Source: Lota lota
Taxonomy: Eukaryota; Chordata; Actinopteri; Gadiformes; Lotidae
NCBI GenBank assembly: GCA_026745465.1
Contig: JACYXH010000231.1
Span: 1-64,000, forward strand
Length of the DNA stretch: 64,000 nucleotides
Direction: 5' to 3'
Shown: piece by piece, positions 2,724-62,100 of the stretch
Numbering within the stretch: the stretch's first letter is position 1
How the letters are laid out: the number at the start of each line of letters is the position of its first letter
Made by a program: the position numbers and the translations under genes
Notes under the pieces: generated by a model
Told to the model about the DNA's origin: nothing
The model's input: the letters and a program-made list of their open reading frames with translations, nothing else
The model's database searches: none

Positions 2724-5591
2724 ATGGCCTCTGCTACTTCCTGGTCTGAAGAGAACTTTTCATGTTCCATCTGTCTGGATGTGTTCAACAGCCCAGTTTC
2801 GACACCATGTGGACACAACTTCTGTATAACCTGTATTACAAAGTTCTGGGATGACCAAGTCCAGTACAAATGTCCTGTTTGCAATGAGCTTTTCAACACT
2901 AGACCTGATCTACGTGTCAATATCCTCGTATCAGAGATGATTGACCAGTTTAGAAGTTCTGTACGAGTCAAAGATCAGCCTTGTGTTGAACCAGGAGAAG
3001 TTCCCTGTGACGTCTGTACTGGGACCCAGCTGAAGGCTGTGAAGTCCTGCCTAATGTGTTTTACCTCTTACTGCCAAACCCACCTGGAGCCACATCAGAG
3101 AGTCGCAGGCCTGAAGAAACATCGTCTGGTCGAGCCTATGGACCGTCTGGAAGACAGGATGTGTAAAAAACACGACCGACTTCTGGAGCTCTTCTGCCAG
3201 ACTGAACAGGTGTGTGTGTGTCTGTTCTGCACAGTGTTGGACCACAAGTCCCATCCTGTTGTACCTCTAAAGGAGGAATTTGAAGTGAAGATGGCCCAGC
3301 TGGGGAAGATGGAGTCTAAAGTTCAGCAGATGATCCAGGAGAGACAACGAAAGATACAGGAGATTAAAGCCACAGTAGATCACAGCAAAGCAGACGCAGA
3401 CAGAGAGATAGCCGATGGTGTGCAGGTCCTCACTGCTCTGAAGCGCTCGATTGAAAAGTGCCAGGATGATCTCAACAAAACGGTTAAAGAGAAACTGAAA
3501 TCCACTGAGAAACAAGCTGAAGGCCTCATCAAACAGCTGGAGCAGGAAATAAAAGACCTGACCAATAAAAGCTCAGAGGTGAAGCAGCTCTTACACACTG
3601 AAGACCACCTCCACTTCCTCCAGACCTTCAAATCCGTTAAGAATCCTCCACCCACTAGGGACTGGACAACGGTGGAGGTCCGTCCTCCGTCATACGTAGG
3701 GACCTTGAGGAGATCCCTGGATCAACTGGAGAAGACACTGAACATGGAGATGAAGAAGGTGCCTGACCTGAGATCAGCTCTAAAGAAGTGTAAGTGTCTG
3801 TTTAGTTAGATTCATCACAACACACACTAACTATTGAGATGGAAAGTCCATCCACACAGCAGGAGGTGACGTCCGTTCATCCAAATCCTTCTGGGAATGA
3901 AGATGATGGCTGATTGCTGATCATATATCTTATGTATACTAAGACTGTTAATGATCACAATTAATCCAACTTGTATAAAATCCAATAGGTTATTTTGTTA
4001 TACTATTTATTTGACTGTCAGTAGTGTTGTGTATATTATCAGTCATAATCATATAATAATCATGATACTAACATCAGGGCTCAAGACTAACATTTTCTAC
4101 TGGTGGCACTGGTGCAGCAAACTTTTTGATTTAGTGGCACCATAACAAATTTGGTCACATGTCTTTTTTCACAGCTTTGTCACAGTATTGTCCTTTGTCA
4201 CGTACCATGTGTGTATGTTCATTCACAGAAAGGGAGTTAGAAATAGGAGGTGTGACAGCGTGTGAAGAGGGTCATTTGCACTCAATTTGTGAGTGTTGGC
4301 ATAGTAGGCAAAGTAATTAGGTTAAATACTCAAGTTACCATGCATTTCTTTCCCTTTCTAGTGATCTGTCATCCAGAATAGTGCGTGTGTGTTTTTGTTC
4401 GCATGCTCTTATCTTGAACAGGACTAGTGCTGCAGAGCAATCTCATTGAAACGTTTAACAGAGTACAAACCAGTTCCAGTTCAGCCGTGTGTCTGAACTG
4501 GAACTTAAGATGGTGGTGTTTCCAATGAGAGCCCTCATGCAGCCACTCTATAGCATCCAGCACGGCTCCAAACCTTCATCACCAACCGTCATATTAAATA
4601 TTGTGGCAGACGGCAGGGAGGGTTGAGGGGAGTCATGATTGAAGGGAGATTTCTTGCAGCCTGCTGGCTCCACCCCCAAGCCTTTTATGGACTTCCTCCT
4701 CTAACGATACAATCCTGAGGCTCGTCAAGCAGGGAGCGCTTGGGGTTAAAAGGGAGAGCAGGCTGCCGCATGGGAGAGGAGCTTGATACAATATCTAAAT
4801 AAAATGTGGGAAATGTTCCGTGGCAGTGCAGCGCTTCTCCTACATTGTGTGGGGAGAACCTCATTATATATATATATTATATATATAATATAGATCTTAT
4901 TACTGGTAGGCTGGTGCTGTTTATTCTCTTTAGATATGAATAATACACCAAACATCTGCTCTGTGGGGAAGGTGGAAACACCTCATCAGTGTATTCCTGT
5001 GTGTTCAGCAGCTAATCATGTCTTGTTCTCCCGTCAGATGCCTGTGAACTCACACTGGACCCAAACACAGCCCACAGACGACTCTCTCTGTCTGAGGACA
5101 ACAGAAAGGTGATGCTGGTTAGAGAGGACCAGTCGTATCCTGATCACCCAGAGAGATTTGACTACTGGGAGCAGGTGTTGTGTAGAGAGGGTCTGACTGG
5201 CTGCTGTTACTGGGAGGTAGAGCGGGAAGGAGTTATTTCTGTAGGAGTGACATACAGAGGAATCACAAGGAGAGGAGAGGGTGATGACAGCAGGCTTGGA
5301 TGGAACAACAAGTCCTGGAGTCTTCATTGTGATCATGATGGTTACTCTGCCTGGTACAACGGTAGTAGAACAGACATACGTCTCCCCCCCGCTGGCTTTA
5401 ACAGAGTAGGAGTGTATCTGGACCAGCCTGCTGGCACTCTGTCCTTCTACAGAGTGTCCCCAGATGTAGGAGGGTCCTCAGACACACTGACACACATCCA
5501 CACCTTCCAGTCCACCTTCACCCAGGAGGACATCCACCCTGCGTTTGGGTTGTGGAGGTATGGTGCCTCAGTGTCTCAGTGTCGGTTGTAA
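2724..5591 (+). CDS. TRIM gene A: bloodthirsty-like RING/B-box/coiled coil with NLR-type B30.2
   Basis: Likely a cytoplasmic E3 ubiquitin ligase of the TRIM family, used in antiviral immunity. The coding exon 2724-3789 (355 codons plus one base) ends at T|GTAAGT. The B30.2 exon 5038-5591 starts after CCCGTCAG and restores a Tyr codon, giving about 539 residues. The RING is C3HC4 (C14, C17, C29, H31, C34, C37, C50, C53). A B-box 1-like zinc site starts at C95, B-box 2 spans about 147-178 and the coiled coil about 180-300. After residue 345 the btr pattern stops and an NLR linker-like end follows, then the [13 protein letters not shown] start of a PRY-SPRY. The start is the ATG two bases after the acceptor, as in genes C-E. 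No frameshift or stop was seen. The body resembles the TRIM39-like/btr group; exact orthology cannot be given. Confidence 0.88.
3790..5037 (+). other. Intron of TRIM gene A with NLR-derived 5' end
   Basis: GT-AG intron of 1248 bp. Its first 85-100 bp match the minus-strand NLR intron at 52227-52141 nearly base for base. The rest is AT-rich, with a short TA run (about 4865-4890) and no coding sequence that I can support. Confidence 0.75.
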
Positions 5592-15137: not shown

Positions 15138-15597
15138 TAGGAGGAGGAGGAAGGTGGAGCGGGTGGAGGACAGGTCCTTGGTGAGGTCGGGGGTGTAGTT
15201 GACCCCAGCCGAGCACGCGTTGTTTATCTTCTTGGAGAGCATCATGGGGGCCCGCTTCTGTGGTGGAGGAGGGAGGAGGGGGGAGGAGGAGGGGATGGAG
15301 GAGGAGGAGGGAGGAGGAGGAAGTAGAAGGAGGTAGTGAGGGAGGGAGGGGGAAGAGGAGGACGAGGGAGGAGGAGGAAGTAGAAGGAGGTGGTGAGGGA
15401 GGACGGGGGAAGAGGAGGACGAGGGAAGAGGAGGGGAAGAGGAGGAGAAAGGGGGAGATGCACACTCCCAACCGTCCAGCAGACATGGAAGCGCTGCGAC
15501 CCTCGGCTCATGTCCCAGGTGGAACCACTGGGAGGCTCCCACGAAGCCATGCCTTATCCCTCCTCAGGGCTAACACCTGAAGCCTTGGCAGGAGCTT
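14418..15597. repeat. 1.2-kb segmental duplication, copy 1
   Basis: Matches 27378-28565 in the same orientation. It holds a unique-looking part (14450-14890), GT and GTGA arrays (14919-15140), a possible exon (15139-15256), a GGA/AGG-rich tract (15257-15460) and an end at CTTCCTCCAG. Arrays differ in length between copies while the non-repeat parts are nearly identical, so the duplication is recent. Confidence 0.85.
15139..15256 (-). other. Possible captured exon of unknown gene
   Basis: On the minus strand, after a CCACCACAG acceptor-like site, an open frame reads KRAPMMLSKKINNACSAG, then VNYTPDLTKDLSSTRSTF. The second copy (28102-28220) keeps the frame with three replacements (M to I, I to T and R to H). 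The composition looks more protein-like than the surrounding repeats. I do not recognise the family, and it may be chance. Confidence 0.3.
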
Positions 15598-16571
15598 CCT
15601 CCAGGCTGCTGTAGCAACGCAACCCTGCTGTGGTCAGAGACGCCGCATCAAGTAGAGGTCATGCCTTCAAGAAGAGGATGAAGAAACATCTCGTCTGCAT
15701 GGGTCTGCAATCCTAAACGTAAGGACCTCAACAAAGTAGTCATCAACATATTCCTGAGTAGCTGTGGATCAGTGATGGGTGCTCTGAAATGTGGTCATGA
15801 AGCTTGATCTGCAAAAGTATGCAAGAATAAAAAAAAGTAGGAAAGGGTTTGTTTAATCCATTTTTATTAGTTTTCAACTGAATTCACTGTAAGACGCTTA
15901 TTGATACAAACGTTTAACAAATGACTCACTAGTAAATTGTTCTGACGACAGATGGTGACGCCTGCCCAAAGAAACAAATGAAAAACAACAACAGAATGAA
16001 ACAGGGTTTAGAGATCAAATGTGTCTCTTTCTGTCAAGTTACCTCAGTGTGGGGCCCCATCTAAAGCCAAGGCCACACTGCCTGATTTTGATTGTTATCA
16101 AAATGAACACAAACGACTACTTCCTGTAGTCGTTTGCAATTTGATATCATTAAACGTATAAAAAACCGGAACAAGAGGAGACGGGACAGAGAGATGGAGA
16201 GATATGAACTTTAACTGAACATTTCGATTGGAAGACACAGGCCCAATGCTGTTGACACAGAGACATCGATGACAGTCAGCTTCACTGTAGGAGAGAGGGA
16301 GGGAGAGGGAGGGAGAGAGAGAGGGGAGGATAGAGCTAGAGAGAGAAAGGGAGAGGGGGAGAGAGAGGGGAGGATAGAGAGAGAAAGGGAGAGAGGGAAG
16401 CTGGGAAAGAGTGACAGGGAGAAAGAGGGAGAGGAGGGAAAGAGAATGAGGGAGAGTTTAACTATTCTACTGAATACACATTGTAGAGAATGTACCTATT
16501 CTACTGATTAAATATTGTACAGTCCGTAGCTATTTCACAGAAAATGACCCCATTTTACTTTTTGTAAATTT
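15598..16571. other. Intergenic, block shared with 34.3-34.5 kb
   Basis: 16090-16235 matches 34320-34455, including CTTCCTGTAGTCGTTTGCAA and a TATAAAAA stretch, so it could be a shared upstream promoter-like element. A GA-rich tract follows (16285-16450). Then 16450-16560 is an inverted copy of the 36-bp minisatellite region at 20755-20880. No gene was seen. Confidence 0.5.
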
Positions 16572-18331: not shown

Positions 18332-19180
18332 ATGGCGTCCGACTCTTCCTGGTCTGAGGATATCTTTTCATGTCCCATCTGTCTGGATGTGCTCAACAGC
18401 CCAGTCACCACACCATGTGGACACAACTTCTGCAGAACCTGTATTACAAGGTTGTGGGATGGCCAAGTCCAGTATAAATGTCCTGTTTGTAACAAACTGT
18501 TCCAGACAAGACCTGATTTACAGGTCAATACCTTAATATCAGAGATGGTTGATCAGTTTAGAAGTTCTGTACGAGTCAAAGAGCAGCCTTGTGTTGAACC
18601 AGCAGAAGTTCCCTGTGACGTCTGTACTGGGACCCAGCTGAAGGCTGTGAAGTCCTGCCTAGTGTGTTTTACCTCTTACTGCCAAACCCACCTGGAGCCA
18701 CATCAGAGAGTCGCAGGCCTGAAGAGACATCGGCTGGTCGAGCCTATGGACCGTCTGGAAGACAGGATGTGTAAGAAACACAATCAACTACTGGAGCTCT
18801 TCTGCCAGACTGAACAGGTGTGTGGGTGCAAGTTCTGCACAGAGACAGACCACAGGTTCCATCCTGTTGTACCTCTAAAAGAGGAATATGAAGTGAAGAG
18901 GGCCCAGCTGGGGAAGATGGAGACTGAAGTTCAGCAGATGATCCAGGAGAGAAAACGAAAGATTCAGGAGATTGCAGACACATCGGACCGCAGCAAAGCA
19001 GACGCAGACATAGAGATAGCTGATGGTGTGCAGGTCTTCACTGCTGTGAAGCGCTCTATTGAAAAGTGGCAGGATGATTTCAACCAAACGGTTAAAGATA
19101 AACTGAAATCCACAGAAAAACAATTTGAAGACCTCATCAAAGAGCTGGAGCAGGAAATAGAAGATCTGACCAATGTATAA
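18332..19180 (+). CDS. TRIM gene C: RING/B-box/coiled-coil protein lacking B30.2
   Basis: 282 codons from the ATG two bases after the acceptor CTAG|GA. The RING (CPIC...CPVC), B-box 1-like site, B-box 2 and most of the coiled coil are intact and close to genes A, D and E. The frame stops at EDLTNV, where the others continue into the rest of the coiled coil. The DNA after the stop equals the 3' flank of the orphan B30.2 half at 28566-29299. A deletion has therefore joined the coiled coil directly to 3' UTR sequence. If expressed, the product would dimerise and might ubiquitinate, but it has no B30.2 target-binding domain. It may be a decoy or simply a pseudogene. Confidence 0.75.
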   Translation: MASDSSWSEDIFSCPICLDVLNSPVTTPCGHNFCRTCITRLWDGQVQYKCPVCNKLFQTRPDLQVNTLISEMVDQFRSSVRVKEQPCVEPAEVPCDVCTGTQLKAVKSCLVCFTSYCQTHLEPHQRVAGLKRHRLVEPMDRLEDRMCKKHNQLLELFCQTEQVCGCKFCTETDHRFHPVVPLKEEYEVKRAQLGKMETEVQQMIQERKRKIQEIADTSDRSKADADIEIADGVQVFTAVKRSIEKWQDDFNQTVKDKLKSTEKQFEDLIKELEQEIEDLTNV

Positions 19181-28103: not shown

Positions 28104-28565
28104 GAGGAGGAGGAAGGTGGAGTGGGTGGAGGACAGGTCCTTGGTGAGGTCGGGGGTGTAGTTGACCCCGGCTGAGCACGCGTTGTTGGTCTTCTTGGAG
28201 AGGATCATGGGGGCCCGCTTCTGTGGTGGAGGAGGGAGGAGGAGGAGGGGGGAGGGGGGAGGAGGGAGGAGCTGGAGGAGGAAGTAGGAGGTGGTGAGAG
28301 AGGGGGTGGAGGAGGATGAGGGAGGAGCTGGAGGAGGAGAAAGTAGAAGGAGGTGGTGAGGGAGGGAGGGTGGGGGAAGAGGAGGACGAGGGAGGAGGAG
28401 GGGAAGAGGAGGAGGAGGAGGAAGGGGAGATGCACACTCCCAACCGTCCAGCAGACTTGAAAGCGCTGCGACCCTCGGTTCATGTCCCAGGTGGAACCAC
28501 TGGGAGGCTCCCACCAAGCCATGCCTTGTCCCTCCTCAGGGCTAACACCTGAAGCCTTGGCAGGA
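27378..28565. repeat. 1.2-kb segmental duplication, copy 2
   Basis: Nearly identical to 14418-15597, but with longer GTGA and GT arrays (27960-28101) and a shorter GGA tract. It ends at CTTCCTCCAG, where the TRIM C-terminal half begins. It contains the second copy of the possible captured exon (28102-28220, minus). Confidence 0.85.
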
Positions 28566-29299
28566 GCTTCCTCCAGACCTTCAGATCCCTGAAGGATCCT
28601 CCACCCACCAGGGACTGGATGACGCTAGAGTTCCTTCCCTCATCATACGTAGGGACCTTGAGGAGATCCCTGGATCAGCTGAAGAAGACACTGAACATGG
28701 AGATGAAGAAGCTGAGTGCTGCTGAACTGAAGAGGGTCCAGCAGTATGAAGTAGATGTGACTCTGGATCCTGATACAGCTCATCCCCATCTCATCCTGTC
28801 TGAGGATGGAAAACAAGTACATGATGGATGTTTGTTGAAGAAACTCCCAGACAACCCTAAGAGATTTACACAATGTATATGTGTTCTCACTAGGCAGAGC
28901 TTCTCCTCAGGAAGATTTTACTTTGAGGTCAAGGTTAAAGACAAGACTGAATGGCATTTAGGAGTGGCCAGAGAGTCCATCAACAGAAAAGATCAGATCA
29001 TATTGACCCCTGATAAAGGTTACTGGACTCTTTACTTCAGAAATGAAAAGTTTATATTTAATGATAACCCTGCTGTCCGTCTCCCTCTGAGAGCTGAGCT
29101 CCAGAAGGTGGGGGTGTTTGTTGATTATGATGAGGGTCTGGTCTCCTTCTATGATGTGGAAGCCAGGGTTCATATCTACTCTGCTACTGGCTGCACCTTT
29201 AGTGAGCCTCTCTATCCATTCTTCAGTCCAGGTCTCTATAATTATAAAGGTATAAACTCTGCCCCCCTGATCATCTCCCCTGTCAATCAAACAGACTAG
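28566..29299 (+). pseudogene. Orphan btr-type TRIM C-terminal half (coiled-coil tail and canonical B30.2)
   Basis: It opens in frame with LQTFRSLKDPPPTRDW, the end of the btr coiled coil. It then runs without an intron through LSAAELKRVQQYEVDVTLDP into a full PRY-SPRY of btr/TRIM39 type (SSGRFYFEVKVKDK; WHLGVARESINRK; GVFVDYDEGLVSFYD; SAPLIISPVNQTD), about 242 codons to the stop. RING, B-boxes and most of the coiled coil are absent. Upstream is repeat DNA joined at TTCCTCCAG. An internal ATG at 28619 could in theory start a B30.2-only protein, but no promoter is visible. It looks like the missing half of gene C, separated by rearrangement. Confidence 0.85.
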
Positions 29300-35870: not shown

Positions 35871-38011
35871 ATGGCCTCTGCTACTTCCTGGTCTGCAGAG
35901 AACTTTTCATGTTCCATCTGTCTGGATGTGTTCAACAGCCCAGTCACCACACCATGTCGACACAACTTCTGTAGAACCTGTATTACAAAGTTCTGGGATG
36001 ACCAACTCCTGTACAAATGTCCTGTTTGCAACAAGCTGTTCCAGAGAAGACCTGATTTACAGGTCAATACCTTAATATCAGAGATAGTTTATCAGTTTAG
36101 AAGAACTGTACGAGTCAAAGAGCAGCCTTGTGTTGAACCAGCAGAAGTTCCCTGTGATGTCTGTACTGGGACCCAGCTGAAGGCTGTGAAGTCCTGCCTA
36201 GTGTGTTTTACCTCTTACTGCCAAACCCACCTGGAGCCACATCAGAGAGTCGCAGGCCTGAAGAGACATCGGCTGGTTGAGCCTATGGACCGTCTGGAAG
36301 ACAGGATGTGTAAGAAACACAATCAACTACTGGAGCTCTTCTGCCAGACTGAACAGGTGTGTGTGTGTCTGTGCTGCACAGAGGGTGACCACAGGTCCCA
36401 TCCTGTTGTACCTCTAAAGGAGGAATATGAAGTGAAGACGGCCCAGCTGGGCAAGATAGAGACTGAAGTTCCGCAGATGATCCAGGAGAGAAAACTAAAG
36501 ATTAAGGAGATCAAAGACACAGTACAATTGAGCAAGAAAGACGCAGACAGAGAGATAGCTGATGGTGGGCAGGTCTTCACTACTCTGATGAACTGCATGG
36601 AAAAGTGCCGGGATGATTTCAACCAAACGGTTAATGAGAAACTGAAATCCACAGAGAAAGAGGCTGAAGACCTCATCAAAGAGCTGGAGCAGGAAATAAT
36701 AGATCTGACCAATAGAAGCTCAGAGGTGAAGCAGCTCTCACACACTGAAGACCACCTCCACTTCCTCCAGACCTTCAGATGCCTGAAGAATCCTCCACCC
36801 ACCAGGGACTGGACGATGGTGGAGGTCCGTCCTCCGTCATACGTAGAGACCTTGAGGAGATCCCTGGATCAGCTGGAGGAGACACTGAACATGGAGATGA
36901 AGAAGCTGCCTGACCTGAAACCAGGTGTAAAGAAGTGTGAGTGTAAAATCTAACATGTATTATTTTAATTTTATAATTGATTAGTACTAATTATTAGTAC
37001 AGTATATTAATACTACACACAATTGAATAATAATGATGGTACCATCATTATTAATAACGTAATGATTGTACCATAGTTATTGTGTGTGTATTCTATTTTT
37101 ACTATTATTGTAATCGTTGTTGTTATTATGCCATTTTTGTTATGCTATAACGTTTGTAAATAATTATTACGAATGTGTTTGCATTAATATATTATTATTA
37201 TTATAATTTTTTTAATTTTCATTACTATCATTATTATATTACACATAATCACGTAACTATACAATGTATTTTTTATAGTCAAAACATGATAGTGTTATAC
37301 AATTATTATGGATGTAATATAACCATTATTACTATAAGCGGAATGCTGTTTATAATAATGCTAATATACATCACTTCCACATTATTTAAATGACATTTCT
37401 GTGTGGCTTAGCAGCCTAATCATGTCTTGTTCTCCCTTCAGATGCCTGTGAACTCACACTGGACCCAAACACAGCCCACAGACATCTCTCTCTGTCTGAG
37501 GACAACAGAGAGGTGACACAGCTTGGATGGAATCAGTGGTATCCTGATCACCCAGAGAGATTTAACTACCATAGACAGGTGTTGTGTAGAGAGGCTCTGA
37601 CTGGCCGCTGTTACTGGGAGGTAGAGTGGGAAGGAGATGTGGATATAGGAGTGACATACAGAGGAATCACAAGGAGAGGAAGGAGTGATGACGGTGAGCT
37701 TGGTATGAACAACAAGTCCTGGTGTCTTCATTGTTGTGATGATGATGATGATGATGATGATGTTTACTCTGCCTGGTACAACGGTAGTAAAACAGGATTA
37801 CCTCCCCCACCCCTCCCTGTCTCTCAAAGAGTAGGAGTGTATCTGGACCGGCCTGCTGGCATTCTGTCCTTCTACGAAGTGTCCCTAGATGTAGGAGGGT
37901 CCTCAGACACACTGACACACATCCACACCTTCCAGTCCACATTCACTCAGGACCTCTACCCTGCCTTTATGTTATATGATTCTGGTTCCATGGTGTCTCT
38001 GTGTCGGTTAT

Positions 38012-38013
<2 letters not shown>
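35871..38013 (+). CDS. TRIM gene D: bloodthirsty-like body with NLR-type B30.2 and poly-Asp loop
   Basis: The coding exon 35871-36936 ends T|GTGAGT after 355 codons. The B30.2 exon 37442-38013 follows CCCTTCAG. The product is about 545 residues. The start chosen is the ATG at 35871 after the acceptor; the in-frame ATG at 35811 lies in the intron. The RING ligands are complete although the usual CGH reads CRH. Both B-boxes and the coiled coil are intact. After MEMKKLPDLKPGVKK it enters the NLR-like linker. The B30.2 carries a run of eight Asp from a GAT microsatellite (37738-37762) in a loop that is DHDG, HDYG or YDGG in the other copies, and a proline-rich loop (GLPPPPLPVSQ). Likely a cytoplasmic E3 ligase with altered recognition surface. 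No stop or frameshift was seen. Confidence 0.87.
36937..37441 (+). other. Intron of TRIM gene D
   Basis: 505 bp, very AT-rich, GTGAGT...TTCAG. Shorter than in genes A and E, and the NLR-like intron start is not evident. Confidence 0.7.
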
Positions 38014-44098: not shown

Positions 44099-46049
44099 AT
44101 GGCGTCCAACACTTCCTGGTCTGAAGAGGACTTTTCATGTTCCATCTGTCTGGATGTGTTCAATAGCCCAGTTTCCACTCCATGTGGACACAACTTCTGT
44201 AGAACCTGTATTACATCGTTCTGGGATGACAAAGTCCAGTACAAATGTCCTGTTTGCAACGAGCTTTACCTCACAAGTCCTGATTTACAGGTCAATACCT
44301 TCATATCAGGGATGGTTGATCGGTTTAGAAGTTCTGTACGAGTCAAAGAGCAGCCTTGTGTTGAACCAGGAGAAGTTCCCTGTGACGTCTGTACTGGGAC
44401 CCAGCTGAAGGCTGTGAAGTCCTGCCTAGTGTGTTTTACCTCTTACTGCCAAACCCACCTGGAGCCTCATCAGAGAGTCACAGGCCTGAAGAGACATCGG
44501 CTGTTCGACCCTATGGACCGTCTGGAAGACAGGATGTGTAAGAAACACGACCTAATTCTGGAGCTCTTCTGCCAGACTGAACAGGTGTGTGTGTGTCTGT
44601 ACTGCACAGAGACGGACCACAAGTCCCATCCTGTTGTACCTCTAAAGGAGGAATATGAGGTAAAGGCGGCCCAGCTGGAGATGATGGAGTCTGAAGTTTG
44701 TCAGATGATCCAGGATATACATAGAAAGATTCAGGAGATCAAAGACACAGTAGATCGCAGCAAAGCAGACGCCGACAGAGAGATAGCTGATGGTGTGCAG
44801 GTCCTCACTGCTCTGAAGCGCTTGATTGAAAAGTGTCAGGATGATCTCAACCAAACGGTTAAAGAGAAACTAAAATCCACAGAGAAAGAAGCTGAAGGCC
44901 ACATCAAAGAGCTGGAGCAGGAAATTAAAGATCTGACCAATAGAAGCTCAGAGGTGAAGCAGCTCTCACACACTAAAGACCACCTCCACTTCCTCCAGAC
45001 CTTCATATCCCTGAAGAATTCTCCACCCACCAGGGACTGGACAACGGTGGAGGTCTGTCCTCCATCATATGTAGGGACCTTGATGAGATCCCTGGATCAG
45101 CTGGAGGAGACACTGAACATGGAGATGAAGAAGGTGCCTGACCTGAGATCAGCTCTAAAGAAGTGTAAGTGTTTAGTTTGATTACTGCCACACTGTCCAT
45201 ACTGCTATTTTGTCATATTCCTAGTCTATAATTATTTGAGTTAAAACAAATAGCTTCTAAGTAAATATATAGTATGTACGTGTATGTATGAGTACATGTC
45301 TGTGTGTGTGTGTATGTGTATATATATATATATTCTATGGCTCCAACAGTTAATTTCCAGCCTGTATGTGAGCTCAGCTTGTTCAGTCTGTTGTTCACAC
45401 AGGTGTCCCTTTTTGAAGGTGGAGTGCAATGTATATGCATGTAATTTGAAATGAAGAAGAATGGTTCAGCAGCTAATCATGTCTTGTTCTCCCATCAGAT
45501 GCCTGTGAACTCACACTGGACCCAAACACAGCCAACAGACAACTCTCTCTGTCTGAGGACAACAGAAATGTGACGTGGGTTAGAGAGGAGCAGTCGTATC
45601 CTGATCACCCAGAGAGATTTGACTCCTGGCCCCAGGTGTCGTGTAGAGAAGGTCTGACTGGCCGCTGTTACTGGGAGATGGAGTGGAAAGGACTTGTTTT
45701 TATAGGAGTGACATACAGAGGAATCACAAGGAGAGGAGGGGGTGATGACAGCATGCCTGGAGGGAACAACAAGTCCTGGAGTCTTCTTTGTCATGATTAT
45801 GGTTACTCTGCCTGGTACAACGGTAGTAGAACAGACATAAGTCTCCCCCATGCTGGCTCTAACAGAGTAGGAGTGTATCTGGACCGGCCTGCTGGCACTC
45901 TGTCCTTCTACAGAGTGTCCCCAGATGTAGGAGGGTCCTCAGACACACTGACACACATCCACACCTTCCAGTCCACCTTCACCCAGGAGGACCTCCTCCC
46001 TGGGTTTGTGTTATGGGGTGGTGCCTCAGTGTCTCTGTGTCGGTTCTAA
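44099..46049 (+). CDS. TRIM gene E: bloodthirsty-like body with NLR-type B30.2
   Basis: The coding exon 44099-45164 (355 codons plus one base) ends T|GTAAGT. The B30.2 exon 45499-46049 follows CCCATCAG. The total is about 538 residues. RING C3HC4, B-box 1-like site, B-box 2 ([16 protein letters not shown]...) and a long coiled coil are complete. The linker reads VPDLRSALKK then [12 protein letters not shown]. The protein is very close to gene A. Differences cluster in the RING distal loop and the B30.2 loops (RFDSWPQVS; LCHDYG; SLPHAGSN). The promoter belongs to the gene C type, while the 3' flank belongs to the gene A type, so the gene itself is a mosaic. The expected role is a cytoplasmic E3 ligase in innate immunity. 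Confidence 0.88.
45165..45498 (+). other. Intron of TRIM gene E, partly NLR-like
   Basis: 334 bp. 45335-45440 matches the NLR intron at 51850-51755 on the other strand (TAATTTCCAGCCTGTATGTG and GTTGTTCACACAGGTGTCCC). A short GT/TA run sits at 45300-45332. Confidence 0.8.
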
Positions 46050-50738: not shown

Positions 50739-51292
50739 CTACAACCGACACAGAGACACTGAGCCACCACCCCACCCTAACCCAAACCCAGGGAGGAGGT
50801 CCTCCTGGGTGAAGGTGGACTGGAAGGTGTGGATGTGTGTCAGTGTGTCTGAGGACCCTCCTACATCTGGGGACACTCTGTAGAAGGACAGAGTGCCAGC
50901 AGGCCGGTCCAGATACACTCCTACTCTGTTAGAGCCAGGGGGGGGGAGACGTATGTATGTTCTACTACCGTTGTACCAGGCAGAGTAACCACCATCATAA
51001 CACTCAAGACTCCAGGACTTGTTGTTCCCTCCAAGCCAGCTGTCATCACCCTCTCCTCTCCTTGTGATTCCTCTGTATGTCACTCCTATATAAACAACTC
51101 CTTCCCACTCTACCTCCCAGTAACAGCGGCCAGTCAGAGCCTCTCTACACAACACCTGGTCCCAGTAGTCAAATCTCTCTGGGTGATCAGGATACGACTG
51201 CTCCTCTCTAACCCGCGTCACCTTTCTGTTGTCCTCAGACAGAGAGAGTTGTCTGTGGGCTGTGTTTGGGTCCAGTGTGAGTTCACAGGCAT
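50739..51292 (-). CDS. NLR B30.2 (PRY-SPRY) exon
   Basis: Terminal exon, 183 full codons, entered after CCCGTCAG with the split Tyr codon. The [20 protein letters not shown] start, [24 protein letters not shown] and the SVSLCRL end are nearly the same as in TRIM genes A, D and E. B30.2 domains bind protein ligands through variable loops. Its frame is intact. Confidence 0.92.
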
Positions 51293-52625
51293 CTGACGGG
51301 AGAACAAGACACGATTAGCTGCTGAACCATTCTTCATCATCATCATCATCACTAGTTCTCTTGCATACTTCTTTTATTCTCTTTATGACACTTTTTAATC
51401 ACTATCTACACTTCAAACAGTAACATAGAAAGACAAAATCACATTGTATGATAGGTGCTATAGTTTGCTAGTGTGCTTTAGCTTTAGAGTTTATAGTGCA
51501 TATTGTTTTTAAGATAATTAAAGTTAAACTTAATAGCTAATCCCATGTGTGTGTGAGTGGCTGTCCCAATCAAAACATTGAAACCAAGGAAAATGTATAA
51601 ACTGCATTTACTCCCTCAATATTTACACTACATACACATATTATACATCAAAATGTTCGGCATGATGAGCTAATCACCCATACAAAATAACTAAGCAATA
51701 CTTGTAATACCTTTACATCTTTAAAAACTTTTGGTTTTCCCAATCCACATACATTGCACTCAACCTTCAAAGGGACACCTGTGTGAACAACAGACTGAAC
51801 AAGCTGAGCTCACATACAGGCTGGAAATTAACTGTTGGAGCCATAGAACTGGTTCATACATACTATATATACATAGACATGTACTCATACATTCTATATA
51901 TACATAGACATGTATTCATACATACACATATATACTATATATACATAGACATGTACTCATACATACACATACATACTATATATACATAGACATGTACTCA
52001 TACATACTATATATACACAGACATGTACTCATACTATATATAAATACATAGACATGTACTCATACATACACGTACATACTAGACATACATAAACACAGGG
52101 AAACATAGCTATACATACGTATACACAAGTACACATCTGAATGAACGGACGTCACCTCCTGCTGTGTGGATGGACTTTCAATCTCAATAGTTAGTGTGTG
52201 TTGTGATGAATCTAACTAAACACTTACACTTCTTTAGAGCTGGTCTCAGCCTCCACACTCCACCGTGCTCCACCCTGGGGGGGGAAACAAAGTGAGAGCA
52301 GCATGTTGAAACATTCACCTTCATCATCTGATGTCTCATCACTTTCTACACAACATGAGTTCCAGCTGTGTTTTCAAACCACTTCATCTAGCAGCTGGTT
52401 GAATCCTTGTAGGAGACATTGTCCCTGAGTGGTGAGCTGTCCTCTCCATACCTGAGAGTGTCCAGTCTCCAGCGTGGATCCTCCAGTCCAGCAGAGAGCA
52501 GCGTAACTCCTGAGTCTCCTGGGTGATTGTAGCTCAGGTCCAGCTCTCTCAGATGGGAGGGGTTGGAGCTCAGAGCTGAGGCCAGAGAAGCACAGCCTTC
52601 CTGTGTGACCAGGCAGCCAGACAAC

Positions 52626-52719
<94 letters not shown>

Positions 52720-55700
52720 TATTCTTCCTTCACTTGGATGTGAAACAGGATCTTAAACAAATGCTCCTTTCTCAATAGCTACAACTCAAATGAGATATTG
52801 TTCTGTTAGAGTCAGGAGAAGTCCGCTGTGTTTGGTACGCTAACACCATTTCTTCACAAGTTCTAACATTGTGTAGAACCAGGGAGTGTTTTGTCAGCAG
52901 GGAAAAGAGCAACAGAAATGCATTGGACATGAGCAGCACTTACACCAAACTAATGGGATGTTAATAAAGGACATCTTTAATGTTCCATATGAATCACTAT
53001 ACCACGGCCAGTGATGTTCTAGTGGTGAGGTGTGCATTATATTCAGATCACAGCACGGCTAGAGACTCATCACCATGTCTACACTAATGACAACTCCTCA
53101 GCTCACATCAGCTGGCCAGAGTTACATAACATATAACATACATAACATACTAGCAGTTAACAGGACAGCAACCCCTAACCCTAACCCTCACATCAGCTGG
53201 CCAGAGTTACATAACATATAACATTCATAACATACCAGCAGTTAACAGGACAGCAACCCCTAACCCTCACATCAGCTGGTGTCAAGTAATGTTGATTCAT
53301 CGGTGTCCAGATATATTAGAAGGTATGGGGCGTAAGGGATGTCTGGTATACAGTAGTTAGGGGCTGGGCGAATCTCCTCACCAGCTTGTTCACAACCGTT
53401 ACAGGATAACAAGCTTCACATAGTGACGGATCTAACACTGGCCAGCGTTACATAACATATAACATACATAACATACTAGCAGTTAACAGGACAGCAACCC
53501 CTAACCCTCACATCAGCTGGCCAGAGTTACATAACATATAACATACATAACATACTAACAGTTAACAGGACAGCAACCCCTAACCCTAACCCTAACATCA
53601 GCTGGCCAGAGTTACATAACATATAACATACATAACATACTAGCAGTTAACAGGATAGCAACCCCTAACCCTAACCCTCACATCAGCTGGCCAGAGTTAC
53701 ATAACATATAACATACATAACAAACTAGCAGTTAACAGGACAGCAACCCCTAACCCTAACCCTCACATCAGCTGGCCAGAGTTACATAACATATAACATA
53801 CATAACATACTAGCAGTTAACAGGACAGCAACCCCTAACCCTAACCCTCACATCAGCTGGCCAGCGTTCTGTGAGCTAGAATAACCTGTTAACTCATAAC
53901 ATACTAGCAGTTAACAGGACAGCAAACATAAAGAACTAAACAATAACAATCTTGTTGAAATCAGTGGTCCTCTAAAGTTATGTCACTACTGTAGCGTTAG
54001 CATCCTCACTGACACGGTGAACCTAGCTTCTAGATGAATAATGATGCTGCATCGTGTCGTGTGTTCTTTTTCCATAACAGCCCACCTAGTCGTGGATCAT
54101 CCCTTACATATTAAACAAGCCCAAAGACACAGTTTGAAGAAGAGGCTGATAACTGACCTGAGAGTTTCCAGTGTACAGTGTGGACTCCCCAGTCCAGCAG
54201 AGAGCAGCTTCACTCCTGAATCCTGCACATCATTGGCACTCAGGTCCAGCTCTCTCAGACTAGAGGAGTTGGAGCTGAGAACTGAGGCCAGAGCTTCACA
54301 GCATCTCTCTGACAGATGACAGCCATTCAGCCTTCACACAAAATAAACACAACATGTTAGGAACTGTGTTTCATACATTCCACTCACAAAGACACGTCTA
54401 GCTCACAGGAGAAACATCTTGTAGCAACAGTGATCACGTTATTTTTTGTTAGCTGGCCTGAGGAGTTCTCCTACATGTTAAGGGGGCGAGCATAGCGAGG
54501 GGACCCAAATGCACGACACAGACACTGACACGGAGGTAAATAATACCAGGGATTTACTGAGGGCAACAAAAGAATAAGGCAGGAAACAGGGGGACGAGGC
54601 AAGGGGCTTGATGGCACGCAGGTAGTCAGACTGGAGGGGGTTCGTCAACGAGCAGGTAGTCAGACTGGAGGGGGTTCGGCAACGAGCAGGTAGTCAGACA
54701 GGAGGGGGTTCGGCAACGAGCAGGTAGTCAGACTGGAGGGGGTTCGGCAATGAGCAGGTAGTCAGACAGGAGGGGGTTCGGCAACGAGCAGGTAGTCAGA
54801 CTGGAGGGGGTTCGTCAACGAGCAGGTAGTCAGACAGGAGGGGGTTCGGCAACGAGCAGGTAGTCAGACAGGAGGGGGTTCGGCAACGAGCAGGTAGTCA
54901 GGCAGATTGGAAAAGGGGAGAAGGTTGTTAGCACAAGTGATAAACACTTTAGCAAATATAGCACGAGGAAGGGCCAGGGACGAGGTACTGACTGTGGTAG
55001 TGTAAACAACGATCTAGCGATAACTGCTTGGAGATCCGGGGTTGATATAGTGAGTGCTAATGAAGATTGCCGGCCGGTGTGTAGACAGAGGGAGATGAAT
55101 GGATGAAGTAGTAGAAAGACACTGGCTAGGTGGCAGAAGTGGACGGCATGACACTACGCCAACTAGAAATGAGGTCTGACTCCCCAGAGCGCGCTCGCAT
55201 GGGAAGCCGAATGGCAAAGCCCACCACCGTATATACACAGCCCACCCACCACCATATAGACACAGCCCACCACATAGACACAGCCCACCACCACCACATA
55301 GACACAGCCCACCACAGTAGACACAGCCCACCACAGTAGACACAGCCCACCAGCGTATAGACACAGCCCACCAGCGTATAGACACAGCCCACCACCGTAT
55401 AGACACAGCCCACCACCGTATAGACACAGCCCACCACCATATAGACACAGCCCACCACCACATAGACACAGCCCACCACCACATAGACACAGCCCACCAC
55501 CACATAGACACAGCCCACCACCCTATAGACACAGCCCACCACCACATAGACACAGCCCACCACCACATAGACACAGCCCACCACATAGACACAGCCCACC
55601 ACAGTAGACACAGCCCACCACAGTAGACACAGCCCACCACAGTAGACACAGCCCACCAGCGTATAGACACAGCCCACCAGCGTATAGACACAGCCCACCA

Positions 55701-58700
55701 CCACATAGACACAGCCCACCACCGTATAGACACAGCCCACCACCGTATAGACACAGCCCACCACCACATAGACACAGCCCACCACCACATAGACACAGCC
55801 CACCACCCTATAGACACAGCCCACCACCACATAGACACAGCCCACCACCACATAGACACAGCCCACATAGACACAGCCCACCACATAGACACAGCCCACC
55901 ACCACATAGACACAGCCCACCACATAGACACAGCCCACCACATAGACACAGCCCACCACATAGACACAGCCCACCACATAGACACAGCCCACCACATAGA
56001 CATAGCCCACCACCACATAGACACAGCCCACCACATAGACACAGCCCACCACCACATAGACACAGCCCACCACCACATAGACACAGCCCACCACCACATA
56101 GACACAGCCCACCACCACATAGACACAGCCCACCACCACATAGACACAGCCCACCACCACATAGACACAGCCCACCACCATATAGGAAGGCACTTCCAAA
56201 CCTGTTGGCCATTTCCCCACAAGAGAGAAACAGAGCATCAATCACAAACCGACACGCCAAGCTGGAAGATCCGACGTGCGCCCAAGTCAAAATCAGAGAC
56301 ACTCAGCACAAAATGAGGAAGTGTGTTAAAGAGCCAGTGAACCCAAAACCTTTTCTTGTGGTTTTAAACTTGGTAATGTGTCTAATATGATGGACAACAT
56401 CGTAATCTACGCAGTTTTATCACTGTTCCTAAAATAATACTGATTTAGAAAAAAAGGGTAAAATCCTATGTTTTTGCCCTTCTCCACAAAACAGGATGTA
56501 AACATTCCCATCTGCTGAACGCAGGCAGTGTTCTTTAGTGACGTCTGAGGGCCTTTTCAGATGAACTCAGAGGAGTCACCTGATTGGACCTGTTAGGTCA
56601 GTCAGCAATTTTTCAAGTTTGCGTAGGCTAATCCTGCAGAAGGCATGGTTTTAGTGCTGATAGTCCAGTACTAGGTGGGACTGTACAACATACCTTTGGA
56701 ATCTCACTGCAGCATTTATTTTGGTCTGGAGAAATGTTTCCACAATGCCTACAAGTTCACCTGTCAGAAGAAGTGAGTGGCATTGATCTATGATATTATC
56801 GGTTGGGTGTAGGATGAATCAGCGGAGTGGTCCTATATTTGTAATTGTGTTACTGCCTCGTCAAAAATTGATATAAATATTTATAAATATTTGTCAAAGG
56901 AACACATGGCCCGTGGGCTGATTCTGATCATGTTTTCATGTTGTCTGCGATGCTCCGTCTACTTTCGTGTTTAACACTCGATAGGCTTGAGCGTGAACAT
57001 ATCAGAATTGGCACCTTGGCACGAATCTCAGCGGCATCCATTGGGACCCATTATATTAAACACAGAACAAAACCTAAAACCCAATATTCCTACGTGTGTT
57101 GTCTTTCTACACGTGTGTTTCGGCACAAAATGAGGAAGTGTGTTAAAGAGCCAGTGAACCCAAAACCTTTTCTCTTGGTTTTAAACATGGTATTATGTAT
57201 TTTATGATCGACAGCATGGTAATCTATGCCGTTTTATCAGTGTTACTAAAATAACACTGATAAAATAAAAGTTGAAATACTATGTTTTTGCCATTCTCCC
57301 CAAAATACGATGTTTTGAAGAGAATCGGAAACTAAGAACTTAAAAAGAACCTGTTAAAAGGTTTCCATGGGGTGTTACCATGGGGATAACAACTCAGTCT
57401 AAAGATTCTTCCGACGTGTGTTGTCTTTCTACTACGTGAGGTGGCGCTCCGTGGCTCGTCTGGTGTGTGACCCGCTTTACATTGAAGCTCTGCTGTAACC
57501 GAGTCAGACCGAGTGGATCCAAAAGACACAGACATTCTCTGAACAGCAATAACGTGATATTTAGGCTAGCAGGTAGAGTACAGTGCCCTGTGGCCGATTA
57601 AGTTAATCTAGAGATAACATTAACTTTTTCTATATTATTTTATCCAGACCAATCTATTGGTCGTGAGTTGATCGAATTTCAGTCGAGTCACTGTTACCAA
57701 AGTAAGACCGTCATTAAGAGAAAGCAGGTGTAAAATCCTGTGTTTTTGTCAGTCCGCCAACATGTTTGTGAACGTTCTCCTCTGCTCCAAACTCAAGTTG
57801 TTTTGGTGACATCAAAGTGCCTTTTAATAAGAACTTTGACGTCCCGCTGAAGGGACACCGGTGGCGAGGTGTGTGTGGATGTGTGGAGCTCCGTCTGGGC
57901 AGCGGTTGATGATGACCGCGTCCAAGAGAAAGCTTCTCACACACTTAGACGTTAGGTTTGCTAAACTACACAACATTTGGATTGCAGACCATTTGCAACA
58001 GCGCCACCCATGAAAGAAGGCCTTACCAGAAACAACCAGGTATTCAATGGTAATATAATATATTACCATTGTAGCGCCCCAACCTCTAGTGTTTATTCAG
58101 CTGTGTAACGAGGTCAATTAAGAATAGGACTTTTGGGTTCTTTATATTTCACATGATTAAAGTATAACCTTTACGTAGAACACTGTTAGATTATTGTAAT
58201 ATTATAATTCAAAGACGAGTTGTGGAGTGTTATTAAATGACATTAAATGCTATTGAAATTGTATGGGGGAAAAGGGATGGATAAAATATGAAAGATAAAC
58301 TAAATATTAACCCGACTAAGGTTATTTACACCATTTACTGTCTCACCAGTAAACTCCAAAGTGCTTCCCTTATTTGTTTTCATATACATTTAGATCAATT
58401 GGCCTTTCACTAATAAGACTATTGACTTTCGTTTAACATAACTTCATAAAACCAAATTGCAATTTATATTTGATACTAAATGTACTATTTATGTGTTATA
58501 CAATTTCATACAAATTCTTGTATGACCAGGTAAAACACACTTTAAACTCCTATAAGAAATACAGTACACAGTAACCTGTGTGTCCACACACACAACACAC
58601 ACACACACACACACACGTCAAATGTATTCTGATATGAACCTTGTGGTGTAACTGTTTATTGAGTCAAACTGACCTGAGAGTTTCCAGTGTACAGTGTGGA

Positions 58701-59045
58701 CTCCCCAGTCCAGCAGAGCAGCTTCACTCCTGAATCCTGCACATCATTGGTACTCAGGTCCAGCTCTCTCAGACTAGAGGAGTTGGAGCTGAGAACTGAG
58801 GCCAGAGCTTCACAGCATCTCTCTGACAGATGACAGCCATTCAGCCTTCACACAAGATAAACACAACATGTTAGGAACTGGGATCTTTAATTAGAAATGT
58901 TTTATTAATTTAACTAATATATTCTATTCAATACATTAGATCCTCGTTTCTTCAGTATTGGGTGTAAAATGTAAGTTTTGTATGTTAATTACTTTTTATT
59001 GTAGTATTGTGTATATTGTGTATTGCATTGTAATACATGGTATCA

Positions 59046-59076
<31 letters not shown>

Positions 59077-59077
59077 C

Positions 59078-59108
<31 letters not shown>

Positions 59109-62100
59109 CATATATATACTGATACCATGTAGATATGACTTCTAATAATATACAAAACGTCTCTGTATGTATATATATATACACATACAGACGTTTTGTA
59201 CCTTCTAATAATATACAAAACGTCTCAGAGACGTTTTGTATATTATTATAAGTTATTTTCCAATATTATGTATATTGTGTGCGAGCACGAGATCAGACAT
59301 CATTTGTGCGCACGGGGGCGTCAGTTGCGTGCTGCTTCGCTTTACTGAGCGCGAGTCTGATCGCGATGGCAGTTAGTGTTTACAATAATGATTTGTGTGC
59401 ACGGATGTGCTAGTTGTGTGAGCACACAAAGTCATTTTTGCTCGCGGTTTTTGTCAGTGATATGCCGCCATAAACGTTGCAGGCCTGTACGGCTCGGTGT
59501 CACAACATGATAGACTGTTCGCTCTTAACGTGAGCAAAACAAAGTCCCGGTACCGTTATAGGGAGAGGAGACGACGGATGAAGAAACTGGAATCCCGGGA
59601 TGATCTTCGTCAGGGGAACCGGGCGCTACCTGACCCTCTGCTGTGGACTATCCTCGTGCGTTACTCTGATGATTTATATCCCGTTCAGAGGATGCTAAGG
59701 CGGTTAGCAAACCAAGCTAGCTTTACACCAAACGACCAAAACATCCCCGACACGAACAAAAACACGAATAAAACAATCCCCAAATACACTCTCTCCCGTA
59801 CTCATTTAACCGTCAAACAACTAATAAGTAAATGTTTAAATATAATTTAGCTGGGCGATCTCTACAGAGAATAAAGTACTCTCTTCCTTTGTCCTCTTCT
59901 CTTCCCGCTCTCCTTTTCCCCGCTCGCTCGTGACCTCTCACCCTTCCCCAAATGACCTGGAAGTCTCTATATCAACCCTTCCTATTGGTTAAACCCAAAT
60001 ACAGTCCATATAACCAAATGTACTGAACAAGGTTAACATGTTTTAAAATAGTGGATAGCTATTATTAATTAATAATAAAATAATAATTAACATATTATTA
60101 ATGTATCCTAAATTGTAACAATTACTTATTTATAGCTATATATTTGAATTCAGCAGAATTTAACTATATAAACTATTATTATTAGGTCTTGGCTTTCCTA
60201 ATTTACTATTCATATTTGTTTATTAGTTTAACATATATTTACTAAATCATTACATCAATAAATGTTAATTATGTATTGTGTGTAAAATGTAAAAAAGTTG
60301 TTATGTTGTATTTTTATATTCGAGTAGTATTTATATTGTGTTGTGTGTATTGTACTACATGTTAATAGTGAACCTACAGAGATGTTTTGTATATTTTATT
60401 ATAACTTGTATTCTAGTATTAGGTATATTGAGTTGTGTGTATTGTAATATATGTTATTAGTGAACCTACACACATTTCTTTGTATGCTGTTATAATTTTA
60501 TACTGTAGTAGTATGTATATTGTGTTGTGTATTGTAATAAATGTTATTAGTACAGCTACAGAGATGTTTTGTATATTATTATAACTTTTATATTCTAGTT
60601 TTATGTATATTGTGTTGTGTGTGTTGTAATACATGTTATTTGTGAACATACAGGTATGTTTTGGAGTCTTTGACCACTGGCAGCAGCCTCAGAAGACCCT
60701 CCTCTGAAGCAGAGTATTTATTCAGGTCAAACACATCCAGCTCCTCTTCTGAGGACAATAAGATGAAGACCAGAGCTGACCACTGAGCAGGGGAGAGAGA
60801 TTCATCGGAGAGTCTTCCTGATGTCAGGTACTGTTGGATCTCCTCCACTAGAGAACGGTCGTTCAGCTCATTCAGACAGTGGAACAGATTGATGCTTCTC
60901 TCTGGAGAGAGATCTCCACCTATCTTCTTCTTGATGTAAGACACTGTATTCTTATTGGTCTGTAAGCCTCTTCCCGTCTGTCCAAGCAGACCTCGTAGGA
61001 GAACCTGATTGGTCGCCAGAGAGAGGCCCAGGAGGAAGCGGAGGAACAAGTCCAGGTGTCCGTTCTCACTCTGTAAGGCCTTGTCCACAGCGCTCCGGTA
61101 GAGGACGAGTTTATATTTCCTGGAGGTTGGTGGTTCTTCTGAGAGCAGATTGATGCCAGTTTTGATGAAGGACAGAAAGACATAAAAGGCAGCCAGAAAC
61201 TCCTGGATGCTCAGATGGACAAAGCAGAACACCTTGTCGTGGTACAGCCCACACTCCTCTTTAAAGATCTGGGTGAACACTCCTGAGTACACCGAGGCTG
61301 CCTTTATATCGATGCCACACTCTTCCAGGTCTGCCTCATAGAAGATCAGGTTGCCTTTCTCCAGCTGGTCAAAAGCCAGTTTTCCCAGAGAAACAATGAT
61401 CTTCCTGCTCTCTGAACTCCAGCGTGGATCTGTTCCAGCTCTCCCATGATACTTCCTGTCCCCCTGTATGGACTGAACCCTCAGGAAGTGGATGTACATC
61501 TGAGTCACAGTCTTGGGCATCTCTTCTTCTCTCTGAGATGTTTTGAACCAGTCCTCCAGAACTGTAGCAGTGATCCAACAGAAGACTGGGATGTGACACA
61601 TGATGTGGAGGCTTCGTGATTTCTTGATGTGGGGGATGATTGTGCTGGCCAGCGTCTCCTCTCTGAATCTCTTCCTGAAGAACTCCTCCTTCTGTGGGTC
61701 AGTGAACCCTCTCACCTCTGTCACCATGTCAACACACTCAGCAGGGATCTGATTGGCTGCCGCAGGGCGTGTGGTTATCCAGATGCGAGCAGAGGGAAGC
61801 AGGTCGCCCCTGATGAGGTTTGTCAGCAGCACGTCCAACGAGGTGGACTCTGTGACATCAGTCCAGATCTGGTTGTTCTGGAAGTCCAGAGGAAGTCGAC
61901 ACTCATCCAGACCATCCAAGATGAAGACAACTTGGAACCGGTCGTAACTGCAGATTCCTGCTTCTTTGGTCTCAATGAAGAAGTGATGAAGAAGTTCCAC
62001 CAAGCTAAACTCTTTCCCTTTCAGTAAATTCAGCTCTCTGAAAGTGAAGAGAAATGTGAAGTGATCGTCGTGGTTGGCTTTGCCTTCAGCCCAGTCCAGA

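Follow-up and report, generated by a model that had tools for sequence, protein, structure and literature searches.

btr-type TRIM genes with an NLR-type linker, intron, and B30.2 exon in Lota lota, and chimeric TRIM proteins in other gadiform fishes

Three TRIM genes of the window and their 3' ends

The stretch of Lota lota DNA considered here (64,000 nucleotides, positions 1 to 64,000 of the forward strand of contig JACYXH010000231.1, assembly GCA_026745465.1), which we call the window, holds three TRIM genes of btr type, designated A, D, and E, whose B30.2 domain lies in a separate exon, and a FISNA-NACHT-LRR-B30.2 gene of the NLR class on the minus strand (50739 to 62459). In each of the three TRIM genes, an exon encoding the RING, B-box, and coiled-coil (RBCC) region is followed by a 3' end that resembles that of the NLR gene. 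The window also contains the 3' half of a native btr gene, a truncated RBCC gene (gene B), and an RBCC fragment at ~11.8 kb; it belongs to contig C231 of the genome searched, which comprises 575 Mb in 867 contigs. The label btr is one that we take to be correct from the type of the native B30.2 domain and from an earlier, sequence-only reading of the window; many database relatives of gene A are named TRIM16-like or TRIM25-like. The features compared are the following.

2724..3789, + strand: gene A exon 1, btr RING, B-boxes, and coiled coil (RING, B-box, and TRIM_CC over the cut-off), the last ~22 bases being NLR-type linker
3768..3886, + strand: gene A NLR-like linker end and first 97 intron bases (blastn, 93.3% over 119 bp to 52249-52135), joined to TRIM sequence at 3762-3767
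5038..5591, + strand: gene A B30.2 (PRY-SPRY) exon, NLR type (blastn, Pfam)
44099..45164, + strand: gene D exon 1, btr RBCC and NLR-type linker
45265..45440, + strand: gene D intron block corresponding to the middle of the NLR intron (51942-51743; blastn)
45499..46049, + strand: gene D B30.2 exon, NLR type (blastn, Pfam)
35871..36936, + strand: gene E exon 1, btr RBCC and NLR-type linker (LKPGVKKY)
37442..38013, + strand: gene E B30.2 exon, NLR type, more diverged (83 to 87% to NLRs; blastn, Pfam)
28553..29299, + strand: 3' half of a native btr gene, with the end of the coiled coil and the native B30.2 in a single intronless frame
50739..51292, - strand: NLR B30.2 exon (Pfam)
51293..52227, - strand: NLR intron separating the linker and B30.2 exons; contains a minisatellite and a block in common with gene D
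52228..52274, - strand: NLR linker exon

In the Pfam scan, which covered exon 1 of gene A, RING families, zf-B_box, and TRIM_CC scored over their cut-offs, and the first exons of D and E were assigned by their 90 to 91% DNA identity to that of A. PRY and SPRY exceeded the cut-off in A, D, E, the orphan btr half, and the window NLR. The latter, with FISNA, NACHT, and B30.2 recognized by Pfam and LRR exons recognized by eye, is a member of the NLR-B30.2 family; A, D, and E, where an RBCC exon and not NACHT lies upstream of B30.2, fall outside it. Neither do they have the btr arrangement, in which a btr-type B30.2 is contiguous with the coiled coil, since an intron separates the two parts and the B30.2 domains of A, D, E, and the NLR share only 30 to 34% protein identity with the native orphan B30.2.

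The comparisons within the window were made by blastn. Gene A resembles the native orphan half up to position 3761 and the NLR from position 3768 onward, its segment 3768-3886 matching NLR positions 52249-52135 with an E value of 5e-46 across the linker end and the start of the intron. The sequence-only reading had described gene A as btr-like and then as NLR linker plus intron, and the comparison bears this out, with the switch between 3761 and 3768; the coordinates that it gave for the NLR linker are corrected here, the exon spanning 52274-52228. All five NLR matches to the gene A junction that were fetched begin at 3768, as do nine further unfetched ones, classed as NLR by their span only. 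In gene D, positions 45143-45183 match the NLR linker (95% over 41 bp), and the intron segment 45265-45440 matches NLR positions 51942-51743 at 80% over 202 bp and includes a nearly identical block. Gene E has the junction position and the B30.2 exon in common with the NLR, and its intron is alike only in the last ~38 bases. The claim of an NLR-like linker and intron in the TRIM genes holds, then, for A and D and fails for most of the intron of E.

The B30.2 exons with short flanks match that of the window NLR at 93.8% over 608 bp in A, 93.7% over 601 bp in D, and 83.4% over 616 bp in E, so that the near identity attributed to the TRIM and NLR exons, in the same phase, applies to the first two and not to E. 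The predicted splice joins AAGAAGT^GT[A/G]AGTG to CAG^ATGCCTGTGAACT (^ marking the exon boundary) in phase 1, and the frames obtained with this splice, deduced from the sequence, would encode 539 (A), 538 (D), and 545 (E) amino acids. Whether these B30.2 domains would group with btr ones was judged by identity and not by a tree: 83 to 94% of DNA positions agree with the NLR, against the 30 to 34% protein identity to the native domain, a result that speaks against a btr grouping. The orphan TRIM half is, as had been stated, intronless and endowed with a different B30.2. Remnants of the native B30.2 next to A, D, or E were sought in the window by tblastn, and only the known B30.2 exons were returned. 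In A and D, the replacement of the native B30.2 by an NLR-type 3' end is upheld for linker, intron, and B30.2 together.

Two NLR forms occur at the start of the intron, with and without TCTG; A carries it, and D and the window NLR do not, a marker that we regard as supporting only, because a short deletion can recur. We considered the window NLR as the donor of A in one local event, and this is not favored, since the intron start and the 3' flank of A are of another NLR type; no match between the 3' flank of A and the window NLR was found, although the B30.2 of this NLR is still among the closest to A (94.2%). We also considered a derivation of the LPD/VPD residues at the junction from the native PRY motif KKLPDN and discarded it, as the codons differ (CTCCCAGAC versus CTGCCTGAC). 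LPD is kept in the native linker of one Gadus and one Lota gene model (P0003 and P0114), and the junction residues would more simply represent native linker. A crossover may have occurred at the in-frame CTGAA common to both genes. Six gene models (P0013, P0031, P0034, P0045, P0093, and P0101) keep part of the native PRY before an NLR-type B30.2.

The remaining features of the window are the following.

18332..19177, + strand: gene B, truncated btr RBCC
52452..52625, - strand: last LRR exon of the NLR (by eye)
54159..54332, - strand: NLR LRR exon, 174 bp (by eye)
58675..58846, - strand: NLR LRR exon, 172 bp, with a 2-bp deletion compared to its 174-bp sister exon (by eye)
60636..62459, - strand: NLR open frame encoding FISNA, NACHT, winged helix, and HD2, given from stop to stop, with exon ends not fixed

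Given the 2-bp deletion, the window NLR may be broken, or the exon at 58675-58846 may be skipped. The sequence directly upstream of the orphan btr half (28400-28577) is repeated at 15423-15604 (93% over 182 bp), and the orphan half may be a truncated copy adjoining a repeat.

The chimeric family in the genome and in other fishes

The observation made on A, D, and E is confirmed and extends beyond the window. Junction patterns searched in the genome with at most two mismatches gave 431 chimeric junctions and 614 native intronless btr junctions, with 0 for each reversed control; these are counts of junctions rather than of intact genes, and some of them may stem from unmerged haplotypes or tandem pieces. 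The native junction, found 614 times, is an expansion in itself. At five places (C209:381451-382596, C340:135078-136231, C152:50873-52018, C179:39266-40171, and C355:2494-2836), the chimeric pattern occurs in tandem at ~555 or 310 bp, which suggests local duplication of the linker segment.

When the gene A junction was used as the query, the best 40 of 1358 candidates were scored. Thirty matches were fetched: a TRIM coiled coil precedes 25 of them, A itself included, and an LRR exon and the NLR linker precede 5; the 10 others, classed by span only, comprise 1 TRIM-like and 9 NLR-like matches. With the gene A B30.2 exon, 40 of 1511 candidates were scored, and 20 of these, viewed with their flanks, are divided into 2 TRIM, 11 NLR, and 7 undecided loci. 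Native btr genes are intronless, many SPRY matches lying in open frames of ~530 to 573 amino acids. TRIM and NLR genes occur in mixed clusters, both in the window and in contigs C656 and C306.

Similarity to the NLRs reaches beyond the coding parts. Internal blocks of the NLR intron are kept in the TRIM loci L045 and L035 and in gene D. The 3' flank of TRIM locus L039 matches the window NLR to the fetched end, ~740 bases past the stop, with 87% identity over 135 bp at the far end and 73% over 477 bp nearer to the gene, the latter being largely CA repeat, while the 3' flanks of A and D match that of NLR locus L038 (79% over 290 bp and 83% over 197 bp, respectively). Since the flanks consist largely of CA repeat, weight was put on the stretches outside it. 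The 3' flanks of 17 native btr genes match each other, and no match to chimeric or NLR flanks was found among them.

As for integrity, of the 26 chimeric loci that could be assessed, 16 retain an RBCC frame of at least ~350 codons together with a B30.2 frame of at least 183; an ATG start was confirmed separately in 7 of the 16. Four further rows were left out because they repeated A, were truncated at the locus end, or had no acceptor in reach. In B30.2, the ratio of nonsynonymous to synonymous change (dN/dS; Nei-Gojobori, ratio of means) is 2.98 for the 91 pairs of NLRs, 1.31 for the 36 pairs of chimeric TRIMs, and 1.60 for the 126 pairs combining one of each. These pairs are not independent; they come from 14 of the 17 NLRs and from the 9 chimeric loci that have the start motif. 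The variable B30.2 columns fall in a few clusters, and such clusters are described as ligand-binding loops in passages of previous studies (PMC2657112, PMC3137616, and PMC4852459).

Among database proteins, 7927 passed the threshold and the best 120 are considered here, so that distant fishes ranking lower lie outside the comparison. All of the 120 closest to A but one (Sebastes) are named Lota, Merluccius, Gadus, Boreogadus, or Lepidogalaxias, the highest identity among these matches being to a Lota lota protein (88% at full length). By motif, the B30.2 domain starts in the NLR manner in 107 of them, in the native manner in 5, and in neither in 8. Full-length chimeric proteins are present in Lota, Merluccius, Gadus, and Boreogadus records. 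LRR-linker-B30.2 NLRs were found among the matches in salmonids, Esox, Osmerus, Polymixia, Centroberyx, Diretmus, stickleback, sea bass, mormyrids, and a cyprinid, and a linker such as VDHGGEWRLKSGLRKY is recognizable in 7 of the 8 nongadiform NLRs inspected, the exception being Diretmus P0126.

Two groups of records deserve separate mention. Proteins under the label Lepidogalaxias salamandroides (P0024, P0029, P0124, and others) include TRIMs with up to 80 to 81% identity to those of the window, and one NLR 3' region under this label is 85% identical to the window; Polymixia NLRs reach only 70 to 73%, though taxonomy places Lepidogalaxias in its own early-branching order. This record may be mislabeled, mixed, or something odder. 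The Lota lota NLR models P0133 and P0163 begin with a btr-like RING (as MASATSWSEENFSCSICLDVF) joined to FISNA-NACHT, and they could represent an exchange in the opposite direction or merged models.

Number and direction of the proposed transfers

It is likely, judging from these comparisons, that A, D, and E are part of a large chimeric family, in which a btr (trim39-like) RBCC exon is joined to the 3' end of a FISNA-NACHT-LRR-B30.2 gene, acquired repeatedly. The transferred unit would run from the linker through the intron to the B30.2 exon, and the best preserved copies would have received the 3' flank too. It could have arisen where TRIM and NLR genes lie in mixed clusters, by ectopic recombination or gene conversion, and NLR 3' ends may have moved to TRIMs more than once and also between TRIM copies. 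The sequence-only reading had proposed a single replacement, in a TRIM of this cluster; this does not accord with the number of chimeric junctions, with the rejection of a single clade in two trees, or with the other gadiforms found among the matches.

The first of these trees, based on the RBCC part, has 44 rows (22 chimeric, one of which repeats A, 21 native, and 1 unclassed); a single chimeric clade is rejected by the approximately unbiased (AU) test (p-AU, 0.000138), and chimeric halves are interleaved with native ones. Genes E, L021, and L027 are nearer in their RBCC part to a native gene than to another chimera. In particular, L027 is 96% identical to native L078 through the 5' flank and RBCC and 99 to 100% identical to the chimera L021 in the linker and intron. 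Because L027 combines an L078-like 5' part with an L021-like 3' part, 3' ends appear to have been exchanged between TRIM copies as well. In the cross-genus B30.2 tree of 84 proteins, a single TRIM clade is also rejected (p-AU, 0.00111), and the TRIM B30.2 domains of Merluccius, Lota, and Gadus group mostly by genus with NLR ones. On this tree, the TRIM label needs 19 changes, and the six origin labels together need 8, the least possible being 5. It contains 44 TRIM, 31 NLR, and 9 outgroup NLR proteins (84 of the 114 available), with two Merluccius species pooled and Boreogadus included in Gadus, and excludes the own genome, Lepidogalaxias, Osmerus, Esox, Diretmus, and the cyprinid. The protein B30.2 trees were built by a quick method from sets reduced by length or motif (13 of 113 database proteins removed) and by reading frame (3 of 17 B30.2 exons of the own genome removed); in the one that includes own-genome exons, the row win_L031 is frameshifted, with stops given as X, and the drawn root follows from its long branch. 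By direct comparison, 5 of 10 representative TRIM B30.2 exons (D, E, L039, L011, and L045) are more similar to one of the 17 NLRs than to any of the 9 other TRIM representatives; another TRIM representative is closer for A (94.6% for the NLR versus 94.8%) and for four others.

Several observations weigh against repeated acquisition, or against a working role of the chimeras. The loci were picked by similarity to gene A, and for 19 of the 22 chimeric RBCC rows the closest neighbor is another chimera rather than a native gene. In the B30.2 exon tree of the own genome (50 rows), TRIM and NLR exons are mixed, and neither one TRIM clade (p-AU, 0.157) nor one clade for the five most NLR-like TRIMs (p-AU, 0.184) is rejected; 20 TRIM B30.2 exons form one strongly supported clade, for which reason much of the copy number must be ascribed to later duplication. 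Many forks in the B30.2 trees are weak, the well-supported branches of the 84-protein tree alone force only 3 changes of the TRIM label, and the AU tests presuppose a single tree for each alignment, an assumption that does not hold under gene conversion. The donor-type markers of A and D disagree, their B30.2 being nearest to NLRs of the L040/L052 kind and their 3' flank nearest to L038. Furthermore, two TRIM-only B30.2 lineages extend across species (gene E with P0099, P0103, P0112, and P0118; Lota P0020 with P0057, P0059, P0078, and P0087), which fits an old transfer for these two. Finally, 10 of the 26 chimeric loci are broken, and the RBCC dN/dS of 0.76 (36 pairs) indicates weak constraint.

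A single old fusion of an NLR 3' end to a TRIM before the gadiform radiation, followed by duplication and by conversion of 3' ends between TRIMs and NLRs in each lineage, is a possible, though less likely, explanation. The junction MEMKK-[V/L]PD-L-[R/K], recurring in Lota, Merluccius, Gadus, and the window species, speaks for it, and the exon tree of the own genome is compatible with it; conversion would, however, have to replace intron blocks and 3' flanks besides exons, and the chimeric RBCC halves are not one clade, though swaps of 3' ends between TRIMs could explain this. The two explanations overlap, exchange recurring in both, and differ only in the number of fusions. The reverse direction, in which NLRs received the cassette from TRIM genes, we regard as highly improbable. 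The cassette is present in both families, and passages of a study of zebrafish NLRs leave the origin of the finTRIM fusion open (PMC4852459), but LRR-linker-B30.2 NLRs occur in cyprinid, salmonid, esocid, osmerid, polymixiid, and berycoid fishes, and the native btr genes examined lack the intron and have another B30.2. Because such NLRs range from cyprinids to acanthomorphs, the direction from NLR to TRIM is preferred.

That the chimeras are TRIM and NLR pieces misjoined in assembly or annotation, or pseudogene debris, is scarcely credible: the genome is in many contigs with many copies, identical copies on separate contigs could be unmerged haplotypes, and the broken loci would suit this explanation, yet full-length chimeric proteins are recorded under four genus names, the junctions number in the hundreds, and both frames are open in most of the assessable loci. 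It is unlikely, and to a lesser degree, that they are real chimeras but mostly idle by-products of TRIM amplification, with a B30.2 variation inherited from NLRs and not selected in TRIMs. The greater nonsynonymous excess in NLRs than in chimeric TRIMs and the weak constraint on RBCC would agree with this, whereas the retention of both frames in 16 loci and the recurrence of two chimeric lineages across species would not. On balance, we lean toward a common, recombining B30.2 library in gadiforms, from which NLR 3' ends repeatedly passed to btr TRIMs and were swapped among them, with variants common to receptors and ligases and pieces possibly returning.

Relation to known systems and significance

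The shuffling of B30.2 domains between TRIMs and NLRs has already been proposed for finTRIMs. In zebrafish, passages of van der Aa (2009, PMC2657112) describe closely related, positively selected B30.2 domains in group A finTRIMs and group 1 NLRs and suggest that the TRIM exon may derive from an NLR; there, the TRIMs are trim25/16-like, the protein similarity is 55 to 65%, and shuffling is inferred, without intron evidence in those passages. The genes described here are instead btr (trim39-like) and present in many copies; ~94% of DNA positions agree between A or D and the NLR, sharing extends to linker, intron, and 3' flank, and TRIM and NLR forms are mixed by lineage. According to passages of Howe (2016, PMC4852459), which also propose finTRIM/NLR shuffling, NLRs have no close genomic association with finTRIMs, and NLR B30.2 domains undergo gene conversion between groups, being homogenized and positively selected; the NLR architecture is alike, and in the present case the pool extends to TRIM genes, part of which lie in clusters with the NLRs. 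For the btr/trim39 genes of zebrafish and pufferfish, a multigene expansion with B30.2 diversification, recombination breakpoints, and single-gene domain replacements is described in passages of Boudinot (2011, PMC3137616), where the main text does not use the term NLR; the class is the same, and in our case the native B30.2 is replaced by one of NLR type. Passages of the haddock genome paper count NLRs, with B30.2 absent from the main text (PMC5894186), and those of the round goby and carp TRIM papers report no such TRIM/NLR exchange. Among open-licence texts searched by title and start of abstract, none was found on NLR-type B30.2 in btr genes or codfish TRIMs; what we did not find in print is the involvement of the btr family, the evidence from intron and 3' flank, and the recurrence.

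In TRIM5-CypA, the B30.2 was reportedly replaced by retroposition of a host cofactor, whereas the replacement here consists of an NLR-type genomic segment. As a TRIM whose B30.2 has given way to another recognition domain, TRIM5-CypA (PMC2279257) is a parallel case.

As regards function, the chimeric proteins are predicted to be RING E3 ligases with an NLR-type hypervariable B30.2 as the bait-binding end, so that one recognition variant would be usable both in a signaling receptor and in a ligase. The statement that a ligase and a receptor have come to share a recognition domain stands at the level of sequence; that shared sequence brings shared recognition, and hence common ligands, we can only infer. 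Codfishes, according to passages of PMC5894186, have lost MHC class II and possess large innate families. The intron and the 3' flank provide a clear record of domain movement, which the finTRIM/NLR case had left open. If our reading is true, a domain common to receptors and ligases at the DNA level, with an excess of nonsynonymous change, would constitute a germline route to matched repertoires of sensing and effector proteins.
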